IMG/VR virus record: IMGVR_UViG_3300028548_004295
Coordinates: 1-37,212 of that record
Reading direction: 5' to 3' (one strand)
Origin: a virus
Length of the DNA stretch: 37,212 nt
The notes below the pieces were generated by a model, which was given only the letters and a program-made list of their open reading frames with translations, had not been told where the DNA came from and searched no databases. Of this stretch, positions 2,254 through 29,779 are shown piece by piece; the stretch's first letter is position 1; the number at the start of each line of letters is the position of its first letter. A program made the translations under genes and the position numbers.

Positions 2254-2588
2254 ATCTCGTCTCTTATATAGCTATATAGTAAACTAGGTCAGTATAATTA
2301 AAAAGGATATTGTATGTTTTAGCGTAATAGGGTCGTAATAGGTTTAGCTAATAGCCACAGGACTCTCTACCTTACAATGTATTCTCTCTAACCTATTACC
2401 GATATTACCTAAAGTACTAACTATTTAAAGATTAAACTTTATTAATTATAAAAACTATATATAGTAATAGGTAAGTAATTAAGTTTACTTTCACATTGTC
2501 ATAAGTGTGATTCCTTAAAGGTATAAAGTGGGGGCAATGGAACTACGCGTATCCCCCCCTTTATTTTTAGTAAGATAAAAGAGACAAG
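2254..2588. promoter_or_regulatory. Divergent control region with repeated operator-like sites
   Basis: This 335-bp AT-rich intergenic space separates the leftward helicase from the rightward operon. It contains GTAATAGGG at 2324-2332 and GTAATAGGTT at 2335-2344, which are direct repeats 11 bp apart (one helical turn). The exact inverse AACCTATTAC is at 2390-2399 and a further GTAATAGGT at 2464-2472. TATAAT lies at 2293-2298. A TCACA-N10-TGTGA dyad starts near 2490. The layout suggests binding of a dimeric regulator between divergent promoters. The sites are read directly; the regulator is unknown. No gene is seen here. Confidence 0.5.
2523..2568 (+). terminator. Hairpin with T-tract in the leader of the rightward operon (attenuator candidate)
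   Basis: Arms ATAAAGTGGGGG (2523-2534) and CCCCCCCTTTAT (2553-2564) form a 12-bp stem with one T-C mismatch and an 18-nt loop, followed by TTTT. It reads as a rho-independent terminator for rightward transcription, yet lies 20 bp before the first gene of the operon. It could end upstream transcripts or act as a conditional attenuator. Confidence 0.55.
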
Positions 2589-7819: not shown

Positions 7820-8147
7820 TAGTGCTAAAGCTAAAGGGCGTAAACTACAGCAGTGGTTTGCTAGTAAGTTAGTAGAGATACTAGGTCTTGATTCAGAAGA
7901 CTTAGAAAGTAGACCCATGGGTAGTCAAGGTGAAGATATTATTATGGGTAAGCAATCCAGGAATATATTCCCATACTCTATTGAGTGTAAGAATCAAGAG
8001 GCTGTGAACGTATGGAAAGCCTATGAACAAGCAGAAAGTAATTGCGGTAAGTATCAACCATTAGTTGTGATTAAACGTAATAGAAGTAAACCATTAGTAT
8101 TAGTAGAAGCAGAGTATTTTATTAAACTACATAAAGAGAAAGAATAA
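7809..8147 (+). CDS. PD-(D/E)XK nuclease, Holliday-junction-resolvase-like
   Basis: About 112 residues from a GTG at 7809. An in-frame ATG at 7761 would give 128 residues but lies deep in the preceding gene and lacks a ribosome site. The fold signature is KAKGRKLQQWFASKL (helix), then GEDII (acidic metal ligand), SIECKNQE (E-x-K catalytic lysine) and a final Val-rich strand LVVIKRNRSKPLVLVEA. This arrangement fits small Hjc/VRR-NUC-like phage nucleases that cut branched DNA before packaging. The start overlaps the upstream gene by 11 bp and the stop overlaps the next ATG by 1 bp, placing it firmly in the operon. Confidence 0.75.
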   Translation: MRPSSAKAKGRKLQQWFASKLVEILGLDSEDLESRPMGSQGEDIIMGKQSRNIFPYSIECKNQEAVNVWKAYEQAESNCGKYQPLVVIKRNRSKPLVLVEAEYFIKLHKEKE

Positions 8148-8992
8148 TGGACAATATTAACCTTAAAAGAGTAGCTGATTTTAATAATTTTATGGTCGAA
8201 CGTCACAATATATTTATACGTAAGGAGTTAAATAATGAGCCCTATCCTTGGAGTGACGATTCTATCCTCACTGCTTACAGTTTTTGTAATGTTTATCGTG
8301 AGCTAGATAGGGTAACTATCTGGATAAGAGAAAACTGGAGAGACCCACATGCTGACCACCCAAACCTACCTTTTGCTATGGCTATGGCTAGGCAAATCAA
8401 TTGGCCACCCACTTTAGCAGAGATTGGCTTCCCTGACACCTTTGACCCAGAACGTATTAAAGGTATTATGAAAGCACGTAAAGATAGAGGTGAGAAGGTT
8501 TATACTGGAGCGTATATGTTAACAGGTACGCTAGGCGGAACTAAAATAGAGCAAACTATTGACAAAATACTTACTCCGCTATATGCTAATTTCCCTACTA
8601 AGTTTGATAGTTTAGAAGAGAGTTGGAAAAGTTTTTTACCCTACCCTGGATTTAGTGACTTTATGTCTTACGAGGTAGTTACTGATTTACGCCATACTAA
8701 ATGGTTACGTAACGCACCCGATATCATGACTTGGGCTAACCCTGGACCAGGAGCAATGAGAGGGTTAAATAGAATATTCGGTAGACCGTTAGACAGTAAA
8801 CAAAAGAAGCCCCTCTTTATACAAGAGATGAGAGACTTACTAGCCTTACTGAATAATACACCTCTACCATTAGAGATGAGAGACATAGAACATTGTCTAT
8901 GTGAGTTTGATAAATATGAGAGGACACGTTTAGGTCAAGGTAGACCGCGTTCCAGATATAAACCCCGTGAATATGAGGAGGACGTACTATAA
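8147..8992 (+). CDS. hmdU-DNA-kinase helical-domain / aGPT-pyrophosphorylase family protein (base hypermodification)
   Basis: A 281-residue mostly helical protein with the hallmarks of the family named for 5-hydroxymethyl-dU DNA kinase helical domains and alpha-glutamyl/putrescinyl-thymine pyrophosphorylases: PWSDDSIL (34-41), FCNVYRELDRVT (46-57), WIREN, a central GTLGGTKIEQTI, the NPGPGAMRGLNRI turn (198-210), and C-terminal DIEHCLCEFDKYER with GRPRSRY. Characterised relatives attach adducts to activated hydroxymethyl-uracil in DNA. There is no Walker A motif, so the kinase half present in some relatives is missing and no kinase is adjacent. The stop and next ATG overlap by 1 bp with the glycosyltransferase. 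Family assignment is from remembered pattern; the reaction is inferred. Confidence 0.7.
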   Translation: MDNINLKRVADFNNFMVERHNIFIRKELNNEPYPWSDDSILTAYSFCNVYRELDRVTIWIRENWRDPHADHPNLPFAMAMARQINWPPTLAEIGFPDTFDPERIKGIMKARKDRGEKVYTGAYMLTGTLGGTKIEQTIDKILTPLYANFPTKFDSLEESWKSFLPYPGFSDFMSYEVVTDLRHTKWLRNAPDIMTWANPGPGAMRGLNRIFGRPLDSKQKKPLFIQEMRDLLALLNNTPLPLEMRDIEHCLCEFDKYERTRLGQGRPRSRYKPREYEEDVL

Positions 8993-9774
8993 TGATTATT
9001 TATATTCCAACCAGAGGCAGGGCACACGATCAAGTGACCTTGTCATTTTTCCCAGATGATATGCGTAAGGATGTTGTCTTAGTAATTGATGACGATGAAG
9101 AGCATTTGTATGAAGGTAAATACGATTGTAAGTACATGGTTATCCCTTCATCTATAAAAGGTATATCAGGTAAACGTAAGTTTATACACGATAACACCAC
9201 AGACCCTAAGATAGTTATGTTAGATGATGACCTGCGTTTTTATATACGTAAGTCTCCTACCGACTGGCATCTAAGATACATGGAGCCTGATGAATATCCT
9301 GCTTTATTTGGTCTTTTAGATAAGTGGTTAGATGACCATGCCCATGTTGGGGTAAGTGCTAGGGAAGGTAATAACCGTGTTGAGCATTTATCAGTTGAAA
9401 ATACTAGGTATATGAGGGTGTTAGGGTATAACCTAGATATGTTTGACGGTATCGAGTTAGCTAGAACTGAGGTCATGGAAGATTTTGATATTAACCTACA
9501 GCTATTGCGTCAAGGTAAAAGTAGTAAGATTAGTTACTACTATGCTCAAGGTCAAAAGTCATCTAACGCGGATGGCGGTTGTAGTGAGTGGCGTACCCCT
9601 GAGGTACAGTCAAATGGTGCTGAGTTACTTCACAGTTTACACCCTGACTTTGTTAAGGTAGTAGAGAAAGAAACTAAAACAGCATGGGGTGGTACTATAC
9701 GTAAGGACGTAAACGTACAATGGAAAAGAGCGTATAACAGTGGTATAAATAAACAATCAGGAGAATTATTTTAA
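8992..9774 (+). CDS. TET-associated glycosyltransferase (TAGT), DNA-base glycosylation candidate
   Basis: A 260-residue GT-A-fold glycosyltransferase. It begins IYIPTRGRA, has VMLDDDLRF (DDD at 78-80, the metal/NDP-sugar site), VSAREGNNR (121-129), VMEDFDINLQLLRQG (161-175, acceptor/base region), QKSSNADGGCSEWRT and a C-terminal KETKTAWGG...DVNVQWKRA. This whole pattern matches the TAGT family described with TET/JBP base-oxidation genes in phages. These enzymes are thought to glycosylate hydroxymethylated pyrimidines in DNA. No TET/JBP oxygenase is in the window. Instead the immediate downstream neighbour (1-bp overlap) is a TS/hydroxymethylase homologue, so the hydroxyl may be installed before replication. 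Acceptor and donor are unknown. Confidence 0.8.
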   Translation: MIIYIPTRGRAHDQVTLSFFPDDMRKDVVLVIDDDEEHLYEGKYDCKYMVIPSSIKGISGKRKFIHDNTTDPKIVMLDDDLRFYIRKSPTDWHLRYMEPDEYPALFGLLDKWLDDHAHVGVSAREGNNRVEHLSVENTRYMRVLGYNLDMFDGIELARTEVMEDFDINLQLLRQGKSSKISYYYAQGQKSSNADGGCSEWRTPEVQSNGAELLHSLHPDFVKVVEKETKTAWGGTIRKDVNVQWKRAYNSGINKQSGELF

Positions 9775-10808
9775 TGGACGTATTAAATTGTAGAAATGTA
9801 AATGACGGCTTTATCAAAGCTATGGATATGTTGTCTTTTGATCAAGGTGACATAACAGAGAGTAGAGCAGGTAATGTTATAGAGCATCCAGTTGCCGTAT
9901 CAACGGTATATGAAAAACCTTGGGAGAGAGTACTGTTTGAAGAAGTACGTGACGCTAACCCTTTCTTTCATTTTATGGAAGGTTTATGGATGTTATCTGG
10001 GCGTAATGACTTAGAGTTTGTTAAGCAGTATAATCAGCGTATGTCTGAATACAGCGACGACGGTAAAACATTACACGGTGCTTATGGTTGGAGATGGATA
10101 GACTATTTCCGTAAAGGTAACAGTGCTGCGTTCACTAGAATTAATCAATTAGATATCATTATTGAAAGACTAAAGAATGATCCTACCGATAGAAGATGCG
10201 TACTACAGATGTGGGATCCCGTAGAAGACTTAGACCGTGAGGGCGTAGATGTACCTTGTAACACTAGTATTTATTTTAAGATACGTAATAACAGGTTATT
10301 AATGACAGTCTGTTGTAGGTCTAACGATGCTATCTGGGGCACATTCGGGGCTAACGTAGTACATATGTCTATGTTACAAGAATACGTAGCTAGTGCTATA
10401 GATGTAGAAATAGGTGAGTACACTCAAGTTAGTGATAGTTTTCATGCGTACACTAAAGTCTTTGAAGAAATGCATTCTAGGTTAGAAGAGTCTGACTCTT
10501 TTGACTACTACTCAATGAAGCATTTTGAGAACCCGTATGATAATAAATCCATTAATAATTTCCCTATGTTCAATAGCGATAACATAGATGACTGGAACGT
10601 AGACCTACATAGATTCTTAGAGCGTAAGCCTTTTGAAGCTGTAGAGTTTAATGATGTGTTTTTTAGTGGCGTGGCTGTACCTTTACAGGATGCTTGGTTT
10701 TTACATAAACAAGGAGAAACTGATGACGCTATGTCAGAAGTACAAAACTGTCTAGCTACAGACTGGGCTAATGCAGGGTTTGACTGGTTACTAAGGAGAG
10801 CAAAGTGA
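9774..10808 (+). CDS. Thymidylate synthase / pyrimidine hydroxymethylase superfamily protein
   Basis: A 344-residue member of the thymidylate synthase fold. The nucleophile is in VPCNTS (Cys162), followed by CRSNDAIWG (Arg182, Ser183, Asp185), GANVVH (Asn194) and SFHAYTKVF (His224, Tyr226). These correspond to E. coli ThyA Cys146, Arg166-Ser167-Asp169, Asn177 and His207-Tyr209. Asn at the base-reading position is typical of dUMP-specific enzymes, whereas dCMP hydroxymethylases carry Asp. The protein is longer than ThyA (264), with extra N-terminal and C-terminal helices, as in phage homologues. Being coupled to the glycosyltransferase suggests it could make hydroxymethyl-dUMP, but plain thymidylate synthesis cannot be excluded. 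Confidence 0.85.
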   Translation: MDVLNCRNVNDGFIKAMDMLSFDQGDITESRAGNVIEHPVAVSTVYEKPWERVLFEEVRDANPFFHFMEGLWMLSGRNDLEFVKQYNQRMSEYSDDGKTLHGAYGWRWIDYFRKGNSAAFTRINQLDIIIERLKNDPTDRRCVLQMWDPVEDLDREGVDVPCNTSIYFKIRNNRLLMTVCCRSNDAIWGTFGANVVHMSMLQEYVASAIDVEIGEYTQVSDSFHAYTKVFEEMHSRLEESDSFDYYSMKHFENPYDNKSINNFPMFNSDNIDDWNVDLHRFLERKPFEAVEFNDVFFSGVAVPLQDAWFLHKQGETDDAMSEVQNCLATDWANAGFDWLLRRAK

Positions 10809-11491
10809 GTGGTCAAATATATCAGTGGTCATACAGTAGACTAGGTACTTTTGAAAAGTGTCCTAAGAAAGCACACTATGCTTATGTTAAGCGTATTAAA
10901 GAGCCTGGGAATAAAGCTATGGATAGGGGTAAGGATATTCATACTCTGTGTGAGGATTATATAAGGGGTCGATTTGATGAGATACCTAAAGAACTAGCAG
11001 ACTTTGAAGAAGCCTTTGATGCATTAAAAGACCTTCACCTTAAAAGTTATGTAACCTGTGAGGGCGACTGGGCTTTTGATAAAGACTGGAAGCCAGCACC
11101 ATGGTTCGGTGAAACTACATGGGGTAGGGCTAAAGTAGATGCGTTTGTACATATTGACGGTACAGATACCGCTAGAGTTATAGACTTTAAAACAGGTAGA
11201 TACGACGGTAACCAAGAAGTACATAGAGAGCAGTGTGAGTTATATGGGGCAGTAGTACTAGAACGTATGCCTGAAATTAAAACCATAACTACTGAGCTCT
11301 GGTACTTAGACCATGGTAAGATTGATAGGTATGAGTATAGTGCTGAAAATATAGTACATAAACAAAAGAAATTAAATGACAGAGCCGTAGCTATGACCGA
11401 GGCTACAGAGTTTCCAGCTAAACCTAGTACGTTTGGTTGTAAGTGGTGTTATTTCGGTAAGGAGAAAATGTGTGATGACAGATATGAATGA
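10805..11491 (+). CDS. RecB/Cas4-like PD-(D/E)XK exonuclease with Fe-S cysteines
   Basis: A 228-residue nuclease. The N-terminal WSYSRLGTFEKCPKKA, RGKDIHTLCEDY (His plus acid), GRAKVDAF (Asp), VIDFKTG (D-x-K) and QCELYG (Q-x3-Y) are the ordered motifs of the RecB/AddB/Cas4 nuclease family. One Cys near residue 19 plus C-terminal CKWCYFG...MC supply four cysteines in the arrangement that binds a 4Fe-4S cluster. A role in processing DNA ends during replication or recombination is likely; CRISPR adaptation is not indicated, as no array or Cas gene is present. It overlaps the TS homologue by 4 bp (GTGA) and the HD gene by 17 bp. Confidence 0.85.
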   Translation: MSGQIYQWSYSRLGTFEKCPKKAHYAYVKRIKEPGNKAMDRGKDIHTLCEDYIRGRFDEIPKELADFEEAFDALKDLHLKSYVTCEGDWAFDKDWKPAPWFGETTWGRAKVDAFVHIDGTDTARVIDFKTGRYDGNQEVHREQCELYGAVVLERMPEIKTITTELWYLDHGKIDRYEYSAENIVHKQKKLNDRAVAMTEATEFPAKPSTFGCKWCYFGKEKMCDDRYE

Positions 11492-11975
11492 TCTATTCAA
11501 TATGATACGTGGTGGTGCTATTAAGCGTTACCACACTTTAGAAACTATAGGTGAGCAGTCAGTAGCTTCTCACTCTTGGGGCGTAGCTATGATACTACAG
11601 TATCTTGACCCTAACGTAAGTAAGGAAGCTATATTAAGAGCTTTAACTCATGACGTAGCTGAACTGTTTACCGGTGATATACCAGCACCAGTTAAGTGGG
11701 CTAACCCTGACTTAGTTGAAGTATTAAAAAGGATAGAAACTAAATACGAAGACAGTATAGGTATCAGTTACAAGCTGAGCCGTGCTGAAAGTAAGCTAGG
11801 TAAACAAGCAGATATGTTTGAGTTATTAGTTTTTTGTGTACGTCAAAGGCGTCTAGGGAATACTAATATGAACGAGGTATTTAGTAACGGTGTGGAGTAT
11901 TTAGCTTCAGATAAATTAAACGAAAGAGGTAAGCATTTACTTGGCTACCTCACTAAGATATACGGAGGTATATAA
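11475..11975 (+). CDS. HD-domain phosphohydrolase (YfbR-like 5'-deoxynucleotidase)
   Basis: 166 residues from ATG 11475, preceded by AAGGAG ten bases upstream. The HD signature is complete: ASHSW (first His), LTHDVAE (HD pair), FTGDIPAPVKW with a downstream acidic residue. The TGD(I/L)P(A/T)PVK block is diagnostic of the E. coli YfbR group, which removes phosphate from dNMPs. In a phage operon containing a TS homologue and a glycosyltransferase it may deplete a competing nucleotide such as dTMP or recycle host dNMPs (inference). The related dATPase DatZ of 2-aminoadenine phages is an alternative, but no PurZ-like gene is present here. Confidence 0.85.
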   Translation: MTDMNDLFNMIRGGAIKRYHTLETIGEQSVASHSWGVAMILQYLDPNVSKEAILRALTHDVAELFTGDIPAPVKWANPDLVEVLKRIETKYEDSIGISYKLSRAESKLGKQADMFELLVFCVRQRRLGNTNMNEVFSNGVEYLASDKLNERGKHLLGYLTKIYGGI

Positions 11976-15713: not shown

Positions 15714-15879
15714 TTTAGGCTTACTGTGAGCCGTTTTAAGCCCTTGATTTAAGTATTAGGTACTAAGGCTTTAGTTACTAAATCAAGGCGTAAACCCCCT
15801 TAAATATATTAACAAAATCATTTACTTACCTACTGATGGTATATACTATATATACTATATATTTATATAGGAGTAATAT
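15714..15879 (+). promoter_or_regulatory. Intergenic region with long inverted repeat and TATACTATA tandem repeat
   Basis: CCTTGATTTA (15742-15751) and TAAATCAAGG (15779-15788) are perfectly complementary, with extra pairing inside the 27-nt loop (GTA/TAC). This could be a terminator-like or structured RNA, though no T-tract follows. Downstream, TATACTATA is repeated head to tail at 15842-15850 and 15851-15859, resembling overlapping -10 elements, just before TAGGAG and the ATG at 15880. Confidence 0.5.
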
Positions 15880-16137
15880 ATGAGTGAAGATATAAGAATG
15901 ATTTATTCGGCTAACCATGCTCTTGACCCTCATTGGGTAGTGAGTTATGGTAGTAAGTCTTTAGATGACCGTGAAGAAATTTTATGTTACGAAGAAAGTA
16001 TGATTGAGGACGCGTGTAATTTAGTTGACATGAGATATAACCCAGATACTATCTACGTATTCAAAAGACCTGACCACCCTCAACACCAAGACGCTTACTT
16101 TTGGAAAGGTGGCTCTCTATCGGTGAACGGTAAGTAG
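15880..16137 (+). CDS. Hypothetical protein
   Basis: An 85-residue protein that I do not recognise. It is acidic in the middle (EEILCYEESMIEDACNLVDMRYNPDTIYVFKR) and has no zinc or membrane motif. TAGGAG lies 8 bases before the ATG, and a tandem TATACTATA promoter-like repeat precedes it. The next gene starts one base after its stop codon. Confidence 0.7.
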   Translation: MSEDIRMIYSANHALDPHWVVSYGSKSLDDREEILCYEESMIEDACNLVDMRYNPDTIYVFKRPDHPQHQDAYFWKGGSLSVNGK

Positions 16138-19803: not shown

Positions 19804-20082
19804 ATGACAAAAGCTACATTAAAAAAGAAGGCTCCCACTACGGTGAAGGGTCAAGTAATACCAACTACTAAGGTTGAGAAAACTGCAACCTTGAAATATG
19901 GTAAATTTCACCCTGATGCTAAATTAAAAGCAACAGGTAAAAAAGTAACCAGCGACGAAAATAACTACAGAGTTAAATCCGTTAATGGTAAAACAGTGAA
20001 AGAAGCACTAGCAGGGGGTTTATATTCCGCTAGTGACTTAAATTATGACATTAATAAAATTAAAACTTTAGAAATTGTCTAG
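19804..20082 (+). CDS. Small basic cassette protein, YDI C-terminal family
   Basis: A 92-residue protein with a Lys-rich, disordered N-terminal half and a compact C-terminal part (YRVKSVNGKTVKEALAGGLYSASDLNYDINKIKTLEIV). The LxYDI...L ending and the ALA helix recur in the two leftward genes at 24342 and 24949, suggesting one paralogous family. It lies in a cassette with its own promoter-like motif and an AAGGAGG site. Basic composition is compatible with nucleic-acid binding. Confidence 0.75.
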   Translation: MTKATLKKKAPTTVKGQVIPTTKVEKTATLKYGKFHPDAKLKATGKKVTSDENNYRVKSVNGKTVKEALAGGLYSASDLNYDINKIKTLEIV

Positions 20083-24000: not shown

Positions 24001-24093
24001 ATGGTACTACCAGAGATAAAGCATATAACAGAAACTAACGAAGTAATAGACCTCTCCACTATAACCTATATAGTGACAACTAAGAAACCATAG
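24001..24093 (+). CDS. Possible 30-residue peptide
   Basis: ATG at 24001 with GGTGG just upstream. It encodes MVLPEIKHITETNEVIDLST and a hydrophobic/Thr-rich end. Too short to be sure; it may be chance. Confidence 0.3.
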   Translation: MVLPEIKHITETNEVIDLSTITYIVTTKKP

Positions 24094-24191
24094 GCTAAGA
24101 CACACGAACCAAAAACCTACGGCTATTAACAATTGACCATGAACCATGGTTGAAGACACAAAAACCAAAGACACAGCCAATATGGCAATAC

Positions 24192-24291
24192 GATCCATCG
24201 TCCACAGATCACGATCTAGATGTTCCGGATCATGATCACGATCCAAAGACAAAGACACACTATATATGCACCATGGATCATGATCATGATC
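24192..24291. repeat. Cluster of nine GATC sites
   Basis: GATC begins at 24192, 24207, 24213, 24228, 24234, 24240, 24276, 24282 and 24288, several within ATGATCATGATC palindromes. Spacing is often 6 bp. Such density is typical of Dam/SeqA-controlled origins or of protein-binding arrays, though function here is unknown. Confidence 0.7.
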
Positions 24292-24306
24292 TCTTATTAT
24301 AGGTAC

Positions 24307-24330
24307 AAAAAAGGGGAGCCGTAGCCCCCC
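24307..24330 (-). terminator. Rho-independent terminator of leftward gene at 24342 (UACG tetraloop)
   Basis: On the minus strand GGGGGGC pairs with GCTCCCC (one G-U) around a TACG loop closed by C-G, followed by TTTTTT. Stable UNCG-type hairpin. Confidence 0.9.
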
Positions 24331-24341
24331 AACCCTAGCCC

Positions 24342-24572
24342 TTACTTGAGGACTAAACTACCTTTTGAAATATCGTAGTTAAGGTGAGTTTGAGCACCTT
24401 TAGGATATATAGTAGCATAGTGAGCTAACGCAGATTCAACAGACATACCGCGAACCGCCTTAGCACGCTTGATATTGTGTTCTGCCCTAGCTATACCAGG
24501 CATATATTGAAGTACCTGAGGAGATACTTTAGGAGTTACCGCAATAGCGGATTTAGTTTTAGTATTTTTCAT
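24342..24572 (-). CDS. Small basic leftward cassette protein, YDI C-terminal family
   Basis: A 76-residue basic protein starting MKNTKTKSAIAV. The core AEHNIKRAKAV...ESALAHYATIY and ending HLNYDISKGSLVL align without large gaps to the protein encoded at 24949 (THNINRASKV...ANALALYKTL, LAYDIKGGRLINL). The ending also resembles the protein encoded at 19804. It has its own terminator just downstream and a degenerate copy of the promoter motif upstream, so it is an independent transcription unit. Role unknown; the lysine-rich N-terminus suggests nucleic-acid binding. Confidence 0.8.
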   Translation of the reverse strand: MKNTKTKSAIAVTPKVSPQVLQYMPGIARAEHNIKRAKAVRGMSVESALAHYATIYPKGAQTHLNYDISKGSLVLK

Positions 24573-24629: not shown

Positions 24630-24656
24630 ACAGTATAATAATTATAGCGTAGAAGT
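24630..24656 (-). promoter_or_regulatory. Degenerate promoter-like motif for the gene at 24342
   Basis: On the minus strand CTTCTACGCTATAAT followed by TATTATACTG matches the repeated motif only in its CTAxGCTATA core. It lies 84 bp before the ATG, near the usual distance. TTTACTTTACTT lies just upstream of it. Confidence 0.45.
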
Positions 24657-24769
24657 AAAGTAAAGTAAAGTATTATTTAAAAAGAAGTATATAAAAGATA
24701 TATATAAAAACCATACATAATGTTCCCTGCGGGGCACACAGAGCATTAGGAGGAGCAGCAGCACACACA

Positions 24770-24780
24770 CCCCCCCCCCC
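24770..24780. repeat. Poly-C tract (11)
   Basis: Eleven consecutive C residues following a CACACACAC run, in an otherwise AT-rich phage. Confidence 0.7.
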
Positions 24781-24821
24781 GATAAACCATCGTCCATGGA
24801 ATTCTGCTCGCTATCGCTCGC

Positions 24822-24861
24822 AAAGACAAAGACACAAAGACAAAGACACAAAGACAAAGAC
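24822..24861. repeat. 14-bp tandem repeat AAAGACAAAGACAC
   Basis: Nearly three consecutive copies (24822-24835, 24836-24849, 24850-24861). A single copy is at 24245-24258 in the sister module. Iteron-like, non-coding on both strands. Confidence 0.8.
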
Positions 24862-24913
24862 ATCTACATCATGATCATGATCTTGTTCATAATCATAATC
24901 TTATTATAGGCGT

Positions 24914-24935
24914 AAAAAAGGGGGCTTACGCCCCC
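24914..24935 (-). terminator. Rho-independent terminator of leftward gene at 24949 (GNRA loop)
   Basis: On the minus strand GGGGGC pairs perfectly with GCCCCC around a GTAA loop and is followed by TTTTTT. Sister of the terminator at 24307. Confidence 0.9.
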
Positions 24936-24948
24936 CGCCTAACTAACC

Positions 24949-25218
24949 TTAACTAAGGTTAATAAGCCTACCGCCCTTAATGTCATAGGCTAGGTCCCCG
25001 CCCCCGTAACCTAGGGTTTTATATAAGGCTAACGCGTTAGCGTAAGTAAAGGTATTAACCTTACTAGCCCTATTAATATTATGGGTAGCCCCGTTTTTAA
25101 CTACGTACGTAAGTACTAAGTTATTAGCCCTTATAGTAGCTAAAGGCGTATTAGTTTTAGCTACGCTAGGTTTTACGCTAGTAGCCGGTTTAGTTTTAGT
25201 ATTAGTATTAATAATAAT
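24949..25218 (-). CDS. ATG-less paralogue of the 24342 protein (ATT start candidate)
   Basis: An 89-codon open frame reads from ATT at 25218 (alternatives ATT 25215, 25212) to a TAA. The frame is closed by TAA four codons upstream and contains no ATG, GTG or TTG near its start; an AAGGGG Shine-Dalgarno-like stretch sits directly before the ATT triplets. The product NTKTKPATSV...THNINRASKV...ANALALYKTLGYGGG...LAYDIKGGRLINL aligns along its length with the protein encoded at 24342. It almost lacks Glu, Gln, His, Met, Cys and Trp, as the dinucleotide depletion demands. It may be a real gene using a rare start or a decayed copy; the intact frame, promoter motif and terminator favour function. Confidence 0.6.
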   Translation of the reverse strand: MIINTNTKTKPATSVKPSVAKTNTPLATIRANNLVLTYVVKNGATHNINRASKVNTFTYANALALYKTLGYGGGDLAYDIKGGRLINLS

Positions 25219-25270
25219 AACCCCTTTTTAAGTACCTAATTTAGTTAGTTTATAAGGCGGTACTAGTAAA

Positions 25271-25297
25271 CCTTATATAACTAGTATAGCGTGTCTA
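25271..25297 (-). promoter_or_regulatory. Repeated promoter-like motif on the minus strand
   Basis: TAGACACGCTATACTAG followed by TTATATAAGG. It begins 79 bp before the ATT at 25218, inside the 67-84 bp range of the other copies. TTTACTTTACTT lies just upstream of it. Confidence 0.6.
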
Positions 25298-25432
25298 GTA
25301 AGTAAAGTAAAGTATTAAGTATACTAATTATATATATATAAACTATACATATTTTGTCTTATACCCCGCCCTAACGGGCGACCCACGCAATATAAATAAA
25401 AGCTTTACTTTACTTTACTTATATAGTATAAT

Positions 25433-25509
25433 AGTCGTCGGCTTCAAAAAGCTCCCTGCGGGGCACACACCGGCAGGAGCCGACCCACGGAGACTACACC
25501 ACGACGACT
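25433..25509. repeat. Nested palindromes (cruciform candidate)
   Basis: AGTCGTCG (25433-25440) is the inverse of CGACGACT (25502-25509). Inside, GTCGGCT (25437-25443) is the inverse of AGCCGAC (25478-25484), and GCTCCCTGC (25451-25459) nearly mirrors GCAGGAGC. The arms compete for alternative hairpins. Confidence 0.7.
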
Positions 25510-25518
25510 CCACCACCA

Positions 25519-25533
25519 CCCCCCCCCCCCCCC
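25519..25533. repeat. Poly-C tract (15)
   Basis: Fifteen consecutive C residues after CACCACCA, followed by ATCTAT-type repeats. Such a tract is unstable in replication and assembly. Confidence 0.7.
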
Positions 25534-25736
25534 GGATCTATATCTATATCTATACCGGTTTCAGCTCGGCTCCCGCGGGCACATAAAAACACCCCCCACC
25601 CCCCTTATACAGGAGCTGGTGTGAGTTTAGCCGTAGCTTAGATTTAAAGAGCCATAAGCCATGACTTTCACATATTGGAAAAGTAAGCTAGAATTAGGGT
25701 CTCCTAACCAAAATTTTTTGCAAATTTTCAGAGCCT

Positions 25737-26105: not shown

Positions 26106-28275
26106 ATACTCACCTTTAGGGTATGAAGAGATGCTAGAACGCATCAAGTACAAAAAGATGCTTGAGGAAATGAGTTCCACTAACGATCCTTCTTACGGCA
26201 CGGAACAAATAGCTTCCCCTTTAGAACGTGGACCAACACAAAAGTTCGGTGACCTAATAGGTAAAGGTTTATACAAGCAACCTTTTGGTTTTAACGATGA
26301 ACGTAGTGCCATGGCTTCTGGTCAAGATTTAGCAACTGTAGCATCCTATACTCCTGGACCAGGGAACGTACTCGGTTACCTAGAAGGTGAAAAGATGATC
26401 GAAGAAGGCAACCCGTTACTAGGTAGTTTAATATCAGCAGCTTCAATTGGTCTACCTGGGAGTAGTAAAGTTTCTTCTTCTGTAAAACCTAAACTAAAAA
26501 CATACCAAGAACCTCCACTACTACCACCACCTCCTAAGCCTCAAGCTTTAGAACACAAAGTACTACACACCGCAGACCGTCCTAGAAATCTAAATGACAA
26601 AGTAGGTACAAACTCTTGGAATAGTGGCACATACTCCGAAGGTAACTTAATGCCTTTAAGGTACGCCGACAACGACACACAGATGATGAGTCAAATAGCT
26701 TTAGCTGAATCAGACCTTTATAAAAAACCTAACAAAATTTACCCAATAAACAACATACTTCAAGGTATGCGAAGATACGGGGTAACGGGTAAAGGTAACG
26801 TAAACCAAAACGTAGATAGACAAATAGATGACTTTTTATCAGAAGACTTTTTAGCTATTGGTAGTGCTACTCCTGCTCAAGTTATGAACGAATTACAGAG
26901 AAACGCTCCTAAAATACAAGAGACCAGTGCATATTACGGGTTAAACTCAACTATGGATGATACAGCAGAATCAGGTTATTCATACTTAACTACTAAAAGA
27001 CCTGTTTATGATTTAGACAGTCCTACAACCTCGTATAACGAAGCCAGACAAACCATGAGCCAATCTTACGGTGAACGTAAGTTTAGTATGTTCGATGACG
27101 GTCAACTTTACGGTAAACAAGGATCAGGAAAAACAAGTTTTCAAAACATGAGACACAACGAAGTGGGATTAGGTACTAAATTAAGTAATAGCCAAGCACC
27201 TAGAGCGAACAACTACATGCACCAAAGATACACGTTTGAAACTATGGACGGAGAGGATAATGTGTTAGTACTGCAAGAAATCCAAAGTGACCCTTACTTA
27301 CTCACTAGAGATCAAGGTAAATTGGCAGCTTCTGTAGCAAAACAAGATGAATTCGGCGATAGAATGCATGTCGACCACATAGTCTCTAAAATTGGAGACG
27401 ACCCCAGAATACCTTTTGAGGACATAGAAACAGGAAAATACACTGCGGGCGAGGCACTAGAAATTAGTGAAGATACAGTAGATTTTCATAATTTTTTAAA
27501 AGAAGCTGGTGAATTAGATAATTTTAATACAGAGTTTGATGAAATAATAGCAAAGTTTCAAACTGAGCAGCAAGACGCTCTAAGTTCTGGTAGTTTTGAA
27601 ATGGAAGAAGGTTCATTTCGTGGTAGAGGATACCCTGTAGAATATAATCCAGAAGTAGCAGACGCATACAACCAAAGAGCAGAACGTTTAGTTTCAAAGT
27701 ACATGTCTGATTTCAGTGAGTATTTAGGAATAGTGTCAGACCCTAAAAACCTACCTAGGAGTGTTGACTGGTTCACGGATAACGTAAAACTAGGTTTGCA
27801 AACTGGAGCCAACAATAACTCACCCTTCGTTTTAATACCTAACGGTGCTAGGTCGTTAGCACTTCCCGCAGGTGAAACTACAGTTGTACCACCTAAAATG
27901 GTGCGTTTCGTAGAAGAACGTTACTCAAACGACCCAAACTATCTACTCAATTACGACACTAAAGGTAACTTTTTAAACCTTCAAGGTAGAAATACAAATG
28001 ATCCTATAACAGGTGAGTTAGAGACACTACGTTTCGGTTCCCCAAGTAAAGAAGCTGTTAACCGAGCTAAAAGTTATAATGACTTCCTTAAAAAAGCCAT
28101 GAAACAAACCGAACAAGATTACGGGGTTAAACTAAACGCTACTGAATACATAGACGCCTACGACCAAGAGTTTTTAAAAATAGAACTTACACCAGAACTA
28201 AAAGAAGCTTTTAAAGTATTTAGGATGAACCATGGTGGAGAAGCTAGTTTAATGCAGTTAAAATATGACCTCTAA
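26095..28275 (+). CDS. Large putative virion-associated protein
   Basis: A 726-residue protein with no assigned enzyme domain. Residues 60-130 contain Gly/Ala-rich hydrophobic segments (TPGPGNVLGYLEGEKMI, LLGSLISAASIGLPGSS) and a Pro-rich linker (PPLLPPPPKPQ). The centre has VLQEIQSDPYLLTRDQGK, resembling the EIQSD motif of phage internal virion or polyvalent proteins. The end FRMNHGGEASLMQLKYDL has the MNxGG signature also seen in small proteins downstream. Location directly before terminase, overlapping by 11 bp, suggests an ejected or injected protein or packaging partner. Confidence 0.65.
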   Translation: MENKYSPLGYEEMLERIKYKKMLEEMSSTNDPSYGTEQIASPLERGPTQKFGDLIGKGLYKQPFGFNDERSAMASGQDLATVASYTPGPGNVLGYLEGEKMIEEGNPLLGSLISAASIGLPGSSKVSSSVKPKLKTYQEPPLLPPPPKPQALEHKVLHTADRPRNLNDKVGTNSWNSGTYSEGNLMPLRYADNDTQMMSQIALAESDLYKKPNKIYPINNILQGMRRYGVTGKGNVNQNVDRQIDDFLSEDFLAIGSATPAQVMNELQRNAPKIQETSAYYGLNSTMDDTAESGYSYLTTKRPVYDLDSPTTSYNEARQTMSQSYGERKFSMFDDGQLYGKQGSGKTSFQNMRHNEVGLGTKLSNSQAPRANNYMHQRYTFETMDGEDNVLVLQEIQSDPYLLTRDQGKLAASVAKQDEFGDRMHVDHIVSKIGDDPRIPFEDIETGKYTAGEALEISEDTVDFHNFLKEAGELDNFNTEFDEIIAKFQTEQQDALSSGSFEMEEGSFRGRGYPVEYNPEVADAYNQRAERLVSKYMSDFSEYLGIVSDPKNLPRSVDWFTDNVKLGLQTGANNNSPFVLIPNGARSLALPAGETTVVPPKMVRFVEERYSNDPNYLLNYDTKGNFLNLQGRNTNDPITGELETLRFGSPSKEAVNRAKSYNDFLKKAMKQTEQDYGVKLNATEYIDAYDQEFLKIELTPELKEAFKVFRMNHGGEASLMQLKYDL

Positions 28276-29779
28276 TTTAAATGACTTACCCGAGTCGGTA
28301 CTAAAAGAACACCTAGAACTAGCTGAAAGGTTAGATCAAATAGAAAAAGTAGAACGCTGTCAAAGTGGATTCATGCATTTTGTTAAAGACCAATGGCCAT
28401 CGTTTATCGGCGGGGCTCACCACAAAAAGATGGCAGACGCCTTTGACCGTATAGCAACAGGCAAAATAAAAAGGCTTATAATCAATATGCCTCCGCGTCA
28501 TACTAAAAGTGAGTTCGCCTCGCATTACTTTCCCGCATATTTAGTAGGTCGTAACCCAGCTTTAAAGATATTACAAGCAACCCACACGGCAGATTTAGCA
28601 GTTAAGTTTGGTCGTAAGATTAGGGATTTAATGTTAACCGAGGACTATGAAAAGATATTCCCCGACGTACTCATTAACCCAGACTCAAAAGCAGCAGGTA
28701 AGTGGGAAACTCAAATGAAGAGTAACCCTAAACTAAAAGGCGAGTATTATGCTGCTGGTGTTGGCGGAGCGTTAGCCGGTAGGGGAGCGGACTTATTTAT
28801 AATTGATGACCCACATAGTGAACAAGACGCTATGAACCCAAAGTCCATGGAAGATACTTACGATTGGTATACCTCAGGTCCAAGACAGAGATTACAGCCA
28901 GGGGGTGCCATAGTTATAGTTATGACGCGTTGGAATATCAACGACCTTACGGGTAAATTATTAAGGGACGCAGCACGTGACCCTAAAGCTGACCAATGGG
29001 AAGTCATAGAACTACCAGCCATTTTACCAAGCGGTAAACCCTTGTGGCCAGAATACTGGAAGCTAGAAGAACTAGAAGGCGTAAAAGCCAGTTTACGTGG
29101 CGGTCCTAAATGGCACGCCCAGTACATGCAGAATCCAACCAGTGAAGAGGGTGCACTTATTAAACGTGAATGGTGGAAGCAATGGGAAAAAGAAAAACCA
29201 CCTACATGCGATTATCTAATTCAAAGTTACGACACAGCCTTCTTAAAAAGTTCCTCGGCAGATTACTCAGCTATAACAACGTGGGGAGTATTTTACCCAG
29301 AGGGAACTATAGGTACTGATTTCTACGACGGCAGATCAGCCCACATTATTCTACTTGACTGTATTAAAGGTAAGTACTCATTCCCTGAATTAAAAGGCGT
29401 AGCTTTAGAACAGTATCATGAGTGGAGCCCTGACGTAGTTATTATAGAAGGTAAAGCTAGTGGTATTCCGCTTACCCAGGAATTAAGAAACATAGGTATA
29501 CCCGTACAAAACTTTACTCCTTCTAAAGGAAATGATAAGATAGCCAGAGTTAATGCTAGTACCCCACTATTTGAATCGGGTATGGTATGGGCACCAGATA
29601 CTAAATGGGCTAACGAGGTTATAGAAGAGTGTGCGGTATTCCCCGCTGGGGACAACGACGATTTAGTCGACTCTACTACTCAAGCTATGTTAAGGTTCAG
29701 GCAAGGCGGGTTTGTTAAATTACCAAGTGATTGGGAGGATGAAGAACTATACTACAAGCGTAAAGTAAGTTATTATTAA
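28265..29779 (+). CDS. terL: Terminase large subunit
   Basis: 504 residues. The ATPase has the variant Walker A PPRHTKS (76-82), Walker B LFIIDDP (178-183) and a downstream coupling region (VIVMTRWNINDLTG). The nuclease domain has YDTAFLKSSSADYSA, VIIEGKASG and NDDLVDSTTQA, giving the acidic RNase H-fold triad. This is the terminase 6/6C type: the motor pumps DNA into the prohead and the nuclease cuts the concatemer. It overlaps the upstream gene by 11 bp, and the portal gene starts two bases after its stop. The small subunit is not adjacent but about 11 kb upstream. Confidence 0.95.
   Translation: MTSNLNDLPESVLKEHLELAERLDQIEKVERCQSGFMHFVKDQWPSFIGGAHHKKMADAFDRIATGKIKRLIINMPPRHTKSEFASHYFPAYLVGRNPALKILQATHTADLAVKFGRKIRDLMLTEDYEKIFPDVLINPDSKAAGKWETQMKSNPKLKGEYYAAGVGGALAGRGADLFIIDDPHSEQDAMNPKSMEDTYDWYTSGPRQRLQPGGAIVIVMTRWNINDLTGKLLRDAARDPKADQWEVIELPAILPSGKPLWPEYWKLEELEGVKASLRGGPKWHAQYMQNPTSEEGALIKREWWKQWEKEKPPTCDYLIQSYDTAFLKSSSADYSAITTWGVFYPEGTIGTDFYDGRSAHIILLDCIKGKYSFPELKGVALEQYHEWSPDVVIIEGKASGIPLTQELRNIGIPVQNFTPSKGNDKIARVNASTPLFESGMVWAPDTKWANEVIEECAVFPAGDNDDLVDSTTQAMLRFRQGGFVKLPSDWEDEELYYKRKVSYY

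Follow-up and report, generated by a model that had tools for sequence, protein, structure and literature searches.

Near-complete loss of the dinucleotide TS from one transcription unit of a phage with a predicted thymidine-hypermodification system

Why would a segment of about 440 bp in a phage genome be almost free of four dinucleotides? The segment lies at 24897-25343 of the window, by which we mean the whole 37,212-nt stretch analyzed (IMG/VR record IMGVR_UViG_3300028548_004295, positions 1 to 37,212). An initial annotation, made from the letters alone, described it as purged of GA, TC, CA, and TG and left 3 options for the cause: selection against recognition sites, an unusual mutational or editing process, and an artefact.

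Composition and boundaries of the purged unit

According to base composition, 102.7 GA, TC, CA, and TG steps are expected in 24897-25343, of which 8 are observed (GA 0, CA 1, TC 4, and TG 3). For 24901-25320 the values are 98.3 and 7, in agreement with the earlier hand count of 7 against about 98. Sliding 200-bp ratios of observed to expected steps place the locus far below everything else, with a minimum of 0.02 compared with 0.37 for the next lowest value in the window and a whole-window mean of 0.88 (sd 0.17). Step-free runs reach 210 bp here (at 25083) and at most 61 bp outside the purged unit. All other dinucleotides have at least 0.74 of their expectation in the segment. Together with its complement, one strand-symmetric motif, 5'-TS-3' (S = C or G), covers all 4 depleted steps; this motif was described before the kinase gene discussed below was found in the window. 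The GC content of the segment (0.358-0.374) is not lowered.

The TS desert coincides with a minus-strand transcription unit, referred to as M2 (Table 1), in which a promoter-like site and a rho-independent terminator flank an open frame at 24949-25227. Besides the coding part, the purge takes in the promoter, leader, and terminator. The consensus −35 element TTGACA contains TG, GA, and CA; in M2 its place is taken by TTTACT, which lacks all 3. Since ATG, GTG, TTG, and CTG all contain the purged TG, none of them is available as a start, and 3 ATT codons following AAAAAGGGG are the sole candidates. The suggestion that the purge accounts for the missing ATG is supported, the only possible in-frame starts being ATT at 25210-25218.

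To judge coding sequences, a floor was used, defined as the smallest number of forbidden steps attainable by synonymous recoding of the given protein. The coding part of M2 has 5 such steps, with a floor of 3 and about 43 for random synonymous codons. The remaining steps are mostly located in codons of conserved residues, e.g., His, or Asp within the DLxYDI motif.

Table 1. Positions of the features discussed, in window coordinates.
Feature	Coordinates	Strand	Evidence or remark
Divergent intergenic region before early operon, second TS-depleted spot	2254..2588	.	41 steps versus 71 expected
5-hmdU DNA kinase (HMUDK)	8147..8992	+	Pfam PF18723 E 1.3e-47
TET-associated glycosyltransferase (TAGT)	8992..9774	+	Pfam PF20691 E 4e-23; PHROG 842 E 3e-52
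Thymidylate-synthase homolog, putative dUMP hydroxymethylase	9774..10808	+	PF00303 E 5e-23; phrog_5131 E 5e-113
YfbR-like 5'-deoxynucleotidase, likely precursor metabolism	11469..11975	+	PF12917 E 1e-17
TS-rich repeat spacer below M1	24090..24341	.	~52% of T in TS
M1 terminator	24313..24330	-	sequence
M1, tandem paralog, ATG start, not purged	24342..24572	-	45% identity to M2; fraction 0.85
M1 promoter, putative, TTTACT-17-TATAAT	24641..24669	-	sequence
TS-rich spacer between M1 and M2, TTGTC/GTGTC + GATCATGATC repeats	24721..24885	.	~67% of T in TS
TS desert = M2 transcription unit, both strands nearly without TC/TG	24897..25343	-	8 steps versus 103
M2 rho-independent terminator	24910..24936	-	GGGGGGCGTAAGCCCCC + T run
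M2 coding sequence, 87 aa	24949..25212	-	basic disordered N-terminus + predicted beta-3helix-beta core
Shine-Dalgarno-like AAAAAGGGG then ATT ATT ATT, putative non-ATG start	25210..25229	-	sequence; G032 likewise ATG-less
M2 promoter, putative sigma-70-type, TTTACT-17-TATACT	25283..25311	-	layout same in G001-G003, G005, G012
Terminase large subunit (terL), landmark of association test	28265..29779	+	homology

Comparisons of the M1 and M2 proteins with Pfam, PHROG, and PDB sequences give no match of weight. Relatives of the M2 protein are absent from the GTDB genome scan and from annotated phages, and none of those found has a known function. The AlphaFold model of the M2 protein has a mean pLDDT of 70 with the N-terminal 30 residues disordered; Foldseek reports nothing at E < 0.001 for it against PDB and BFVD, and a second look at 10 chains with VIA-align gives a best Z of 4.3. 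The lack of a listed fold is not taken as evidence for a new one.

Relatives, modification genes, and depletion elsewhere

The purge recurs in relatives. Two further IMG/VR records from different metagenomes share both protein and purge with the window, one of them with synonymous differences, and this excluded in practice the artefact that the initial annotation had kept among its options. Six strongly purged orthologs, including those of G001, G002, G003, G005, and G012, retain 5-7 steps in the coding part, with a floor of 3-5 and an expectation of 36-43. Partly purged orthologs also exist, i.e., G008 with 0.77 (35 versus 43) and G013 with 0.50, and G042 is TS-free in the leader region only. 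Relatives that combine the same protein with normal dinucleotide usage were to count against the purge; orthologs range from nearly fully purged to partly relaxed, and normal usage belongs to the adjoining paralog.

Genes of the M1/M2 family occur in dozens of marine IMG/VR records. Far relatives with about 40% protein likeness (L094, L096, L100, and L102) are purged too, in some cases on the opposite strand, and the purge tracks the gene family despite altered gene content or orientation (L094, G032, and G033). A very divergent member at G032:31263-31514 has a full TS desert and apparently an ATG-less start. In contrast, the sister gene M1 at 24342, the comparison proposed initially, is not purged (ratio about 0.85-0.9), and across records it has 0.79-1.08 of expectation, being normal in all 13 measured. 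Between related M2 units, differences at TS steps alter C/G in 129 cases and T/A in 84 (pairs overlap) and go to several products. That C/G is hit as well as T/A is better accounted for by selection against the dinucleotide than by a modified T simply mutating.

As for a possible agent, genes for a kinase, a TAGT, and a thymidylate-synthase homolog stand side by side at 8147-10808, and the window contains both genes, the kinase and the thymidylate-synthase-like one (which would supply 5-hmdU), by which a 5-hmdU-kinase hypermodification system is recognized. The same pair is found in the 5-hmdU DNA kinase phages Pseudomonas M6, Salmonella ViI, and Delftia phiW-14, where TS is modified: restriction data for M6, ViI, and phiW-14 place hypermodified thymine in TG or TC, and the kinase was proposed as the origin of this specificity (Flodman et al. 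2019, PMC6449724). SP8 DNA treated with purified kinase becomes resistant at sites containing TG or TC (PMC7653180). The motif purged from M2 is the reported modification motif, and the TS-specific depletion indirectly supports hypermodified T in this context for the window phage. Because TS is the hypermodified site in kinase phages and a kinase is present here, the M2 unit is predicted to be nearly free of hypermodified thymine, in a genome where about 1 in 3 T sits in TS (32-35% across the whole window).

The association with the kinase was evaluated at terL loci having at least 3 kb upstream, a desert being defined as a 300-bp stretch with <0.35 of expectation. A desert is found upstream of 25 of the 35 window-like terL loci versus 0 of 27 in the sister group (HTVC027P-like terL), where the lowest ratio is 0.63. 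Seven of the 35 have none, and short contigs explain some but not all of these. G029 and G031 appeared to be exceptions, but their contigs do not cover the sequence upstream of terL. All long desert-bearing records examined contain the complete trio of kinase, TAGT, and thymidylate-synthase-like genes. No kinase is detected in the sister group, for which 11 records of 21-63 kb were searched (in a run that returned no positive, although the same family search is positive elsewhere), or in 4 relatives with complete genomes. The association is supportive and not proof, because the contrast is largely that of one clade with its sister.

Unlike the window phage, 8 cultured kinase phages from outside the group (M6, phiW-14, SFP10, and others) have no TS desert; they are mostly GC-rich, and none has a detectable TAGT. 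For M6, phiW-14, and the ViI-like SFP10, TS depletion is absent as well, and no TAGT homolog is detectable from that of the window. Thus, modification alone does not force a desert.

Within the group, a milder depletion extends beyond M2. Synonymous-level TS in replication genes is 0.81-0.97 in 12 kinase-bearing phages versus 1.01-1.07 in 4 controls, and capsid genes show no depletion in either set. The idea that the entire genome obeys a TS rule was rejected, the genome-wide trend being only mild. The second depleted spot, 2254-2588, separates the early operon from a helicase gene of divergent orientation. Its equivalent, located about 1.7-1.9 kb ahead of the primase gene, has a ratio of 0.31-0.55 in 11 of 12 relatives versus 0.73-0.86 in 4 controls. 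With both this spot and M2 being TS-poor, the strongest depletion falls at sites where early transcription would start. A smaller third TS-poor stretch is the intergenic region with a hairpin at 15714-15880 (14 steps versus 34 expected).

Regarding the affiliation of the phage, its PolA, TerL, portal, and capsid proteins are 47-74% identical to those of HTVC027P, HTVC023P, psg01, and DSL-LC04, and it has homologs of all the proteins that characterize the HTVC023P type (PolA, TerL, portal, capsid, and GroES). According to PMC9599517, pelagiphages of this type are widespread in the ocean, Clades V, VIII, and IX have thymidylate synthase ("TS") and aG/PT-PPlase1 near PolA, and some phages of these clades have 5'-deoxynucleotidase and glucosyltransferase. 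By its gene content, the window phage is a candidate member of Clade V/VIII/IX. The passages of PMC9599517 consulted here contain no mention of a compositional desert or of an early gene of the M2 type.

Explanations for the purge

Avoidance of TS is well supported: direct observation shows the purge and where it ends, how close it comes to the minimum set by the protein, that it recurs in relatives, and that it goes together with the kinase clade. The cause is very probably that the phage avoids its own TS hypermodification. It is likely that selection emptied the complete minus-strand M2 unit of TS and that unmodified host RNA polymerase can thereby read this unit from the modified incoming genome; that early transcription is the reason is a purpose we infer with somewhat better than even confidence. 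In this mechanism the TS thymines of the incoming genome would be hypermodified, both the modification of this DNA and the use of TS by this kinase being presumed, and unmodified host RNA polymerase would transcribe such a genome poorly. According to PMC11550810 (introduction) and PMC7653180, phosphorylation of 5-hmU by 5HMUDK stopped E. coli RNA polymerase from transcribing in vitro, and bulky or charged thymine modifications are described as hindering bacterial RNA polymerase. The TS-free M2 unit would stay readable, and its product would be a first-expressed protein; as a guess, this small basic protein might next help the polymerase on modified DNA. Counting against avoidance for early transcription are M1, which has the same promoter type and is not purged, the cultured kinase phages with no desert, the partly purged orthologs, and the 7 desert-free window-like terL loci. 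Put more tentatively, M2 could be a "modification-exempt pioneer gene", whose product, as the first protein made by unaltered host RNA polymerase, would open the modified genome to transcription, with TS-rich spacers perhaps serving as insulators.

Of the options left initially, selection against recognition sites turned out to be the correct type of answer, with the dinucleotide TS as the recognized site in place of a set of restriction sites. As in restriction-site avoidance, selection appears to remove a short motif recognized by a DNA enzyme; in contrast to it, the enzyme would be one that the phage itself uses for modification, only 2 bases define the motif, and the removal is limited to one transcription unit. 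Avoidance of host restriction sites as such is hardly credible, even with GGCC, CCGG, GCGC, and GATC being rare in the phage's genes: CCGG, GTAC, CTAG, and CGCG are still present in the unit, and the adjoining GATC-rich spacers are not purged. Genome-wide loss of whole restriction sites was rejected for similar reasons, since TS-less palindromes persist and the purge is local. A different purpose for unmodified DNA is unlikely, whether to start packaging, to serve as a replication origin, or to bind a modification-intolerant protein. The position of M2 between the early genes and terL and the repeat- and hairpin-rich spacers beside it speak for such a transaction, but the boundaries of the desert match a promoter and a terminator, the purge follows the gene family through the rearranged records, the second TS-poor spot precedes the early operon, and mild depletion extends to replication genes.

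Mutation without selection, either by context-dependent deamination or through a mutable hypermodified T, would agree with the mild genome-wide depletion in kinase-bearing phages. It is nevertheless quite improbable, considering that the paralog M1 is untouched, the spacers are TS-rich, GC is kept, capsid genes are undepleted, and both S and W bases are changed to several products. Fungal RIP and deaminase hypermutation likewise lose CA/TG and gain TA; however, M2 has also lost TC/GA, has kept its GC, and shows mixed changes and sharp transcription-unit bounds. Single-direction deamination or RIP-like decay was rejected on GC and the mixed changes, which also bear out the initial opinion that C-to-T decay is a poor fit. 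Selection at the RNA level, for instance with the encoded protein or another enzyme being an RNase that spares M2 mRNA, would explain why the purge coincides with the transcribed region, but it is very improbable, because TC/TG and GA/CA are equally purged and the untranscribed promoter is included. For an assembly or sequencing artefact, the chance is practically nil: no point in its favor was found, independent metagenomes carry the same unit with protein-preserving differences in one, and homologous deserts occur in dozens of records.

In a limited literature search, no prior description was found of a transcription unit rewritten to evade the modifying enzyme of its own phage, or of a modification-free gene. 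The unit appears to be new as a kind of feature, the chemistry in this clade being predicted from sequence; already known are the gene set in HTVC023P-type pelagiphages (PMC9599517) and the TS context in other phages. Avoidance of the phage's own modification bears on how a host polymerase unprepared for it comes to transcribe heavily modified incoming phage DNA. If this reading is true, the purged unit would be a direct genomic answer, and the question becomes testable. The sequence context of the enzyme, and perhaps also the first-acting genes, could then be read from genome sequence alone.

Spacers and neighboring features

The spacers at 24090-24341, 24721-24885, and 25344-25640 consist of short hairpin and repeat arrays (TTGTC/GTGTC, GATCATGATC, and CCCTGCGGGG). 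The former 2, being TS-rich, may act as densely modified insulators. T7-type primase sites were considered for the GTC repeats of the spacers and dropped.

Strong avoidance of GGCC, CCGG, GCGC, and GATC in the window genes suggests a restriction pressure separate from the TS effect. On the plus strand, 19804-20082 encodes a 92-aa protein of normal composition with a C-terminal SASDLNYDINKIKTLEIV that resembles the C-terminal motif of M1 and M2; judging by this similarity, it is likely a third, distant member of the family.
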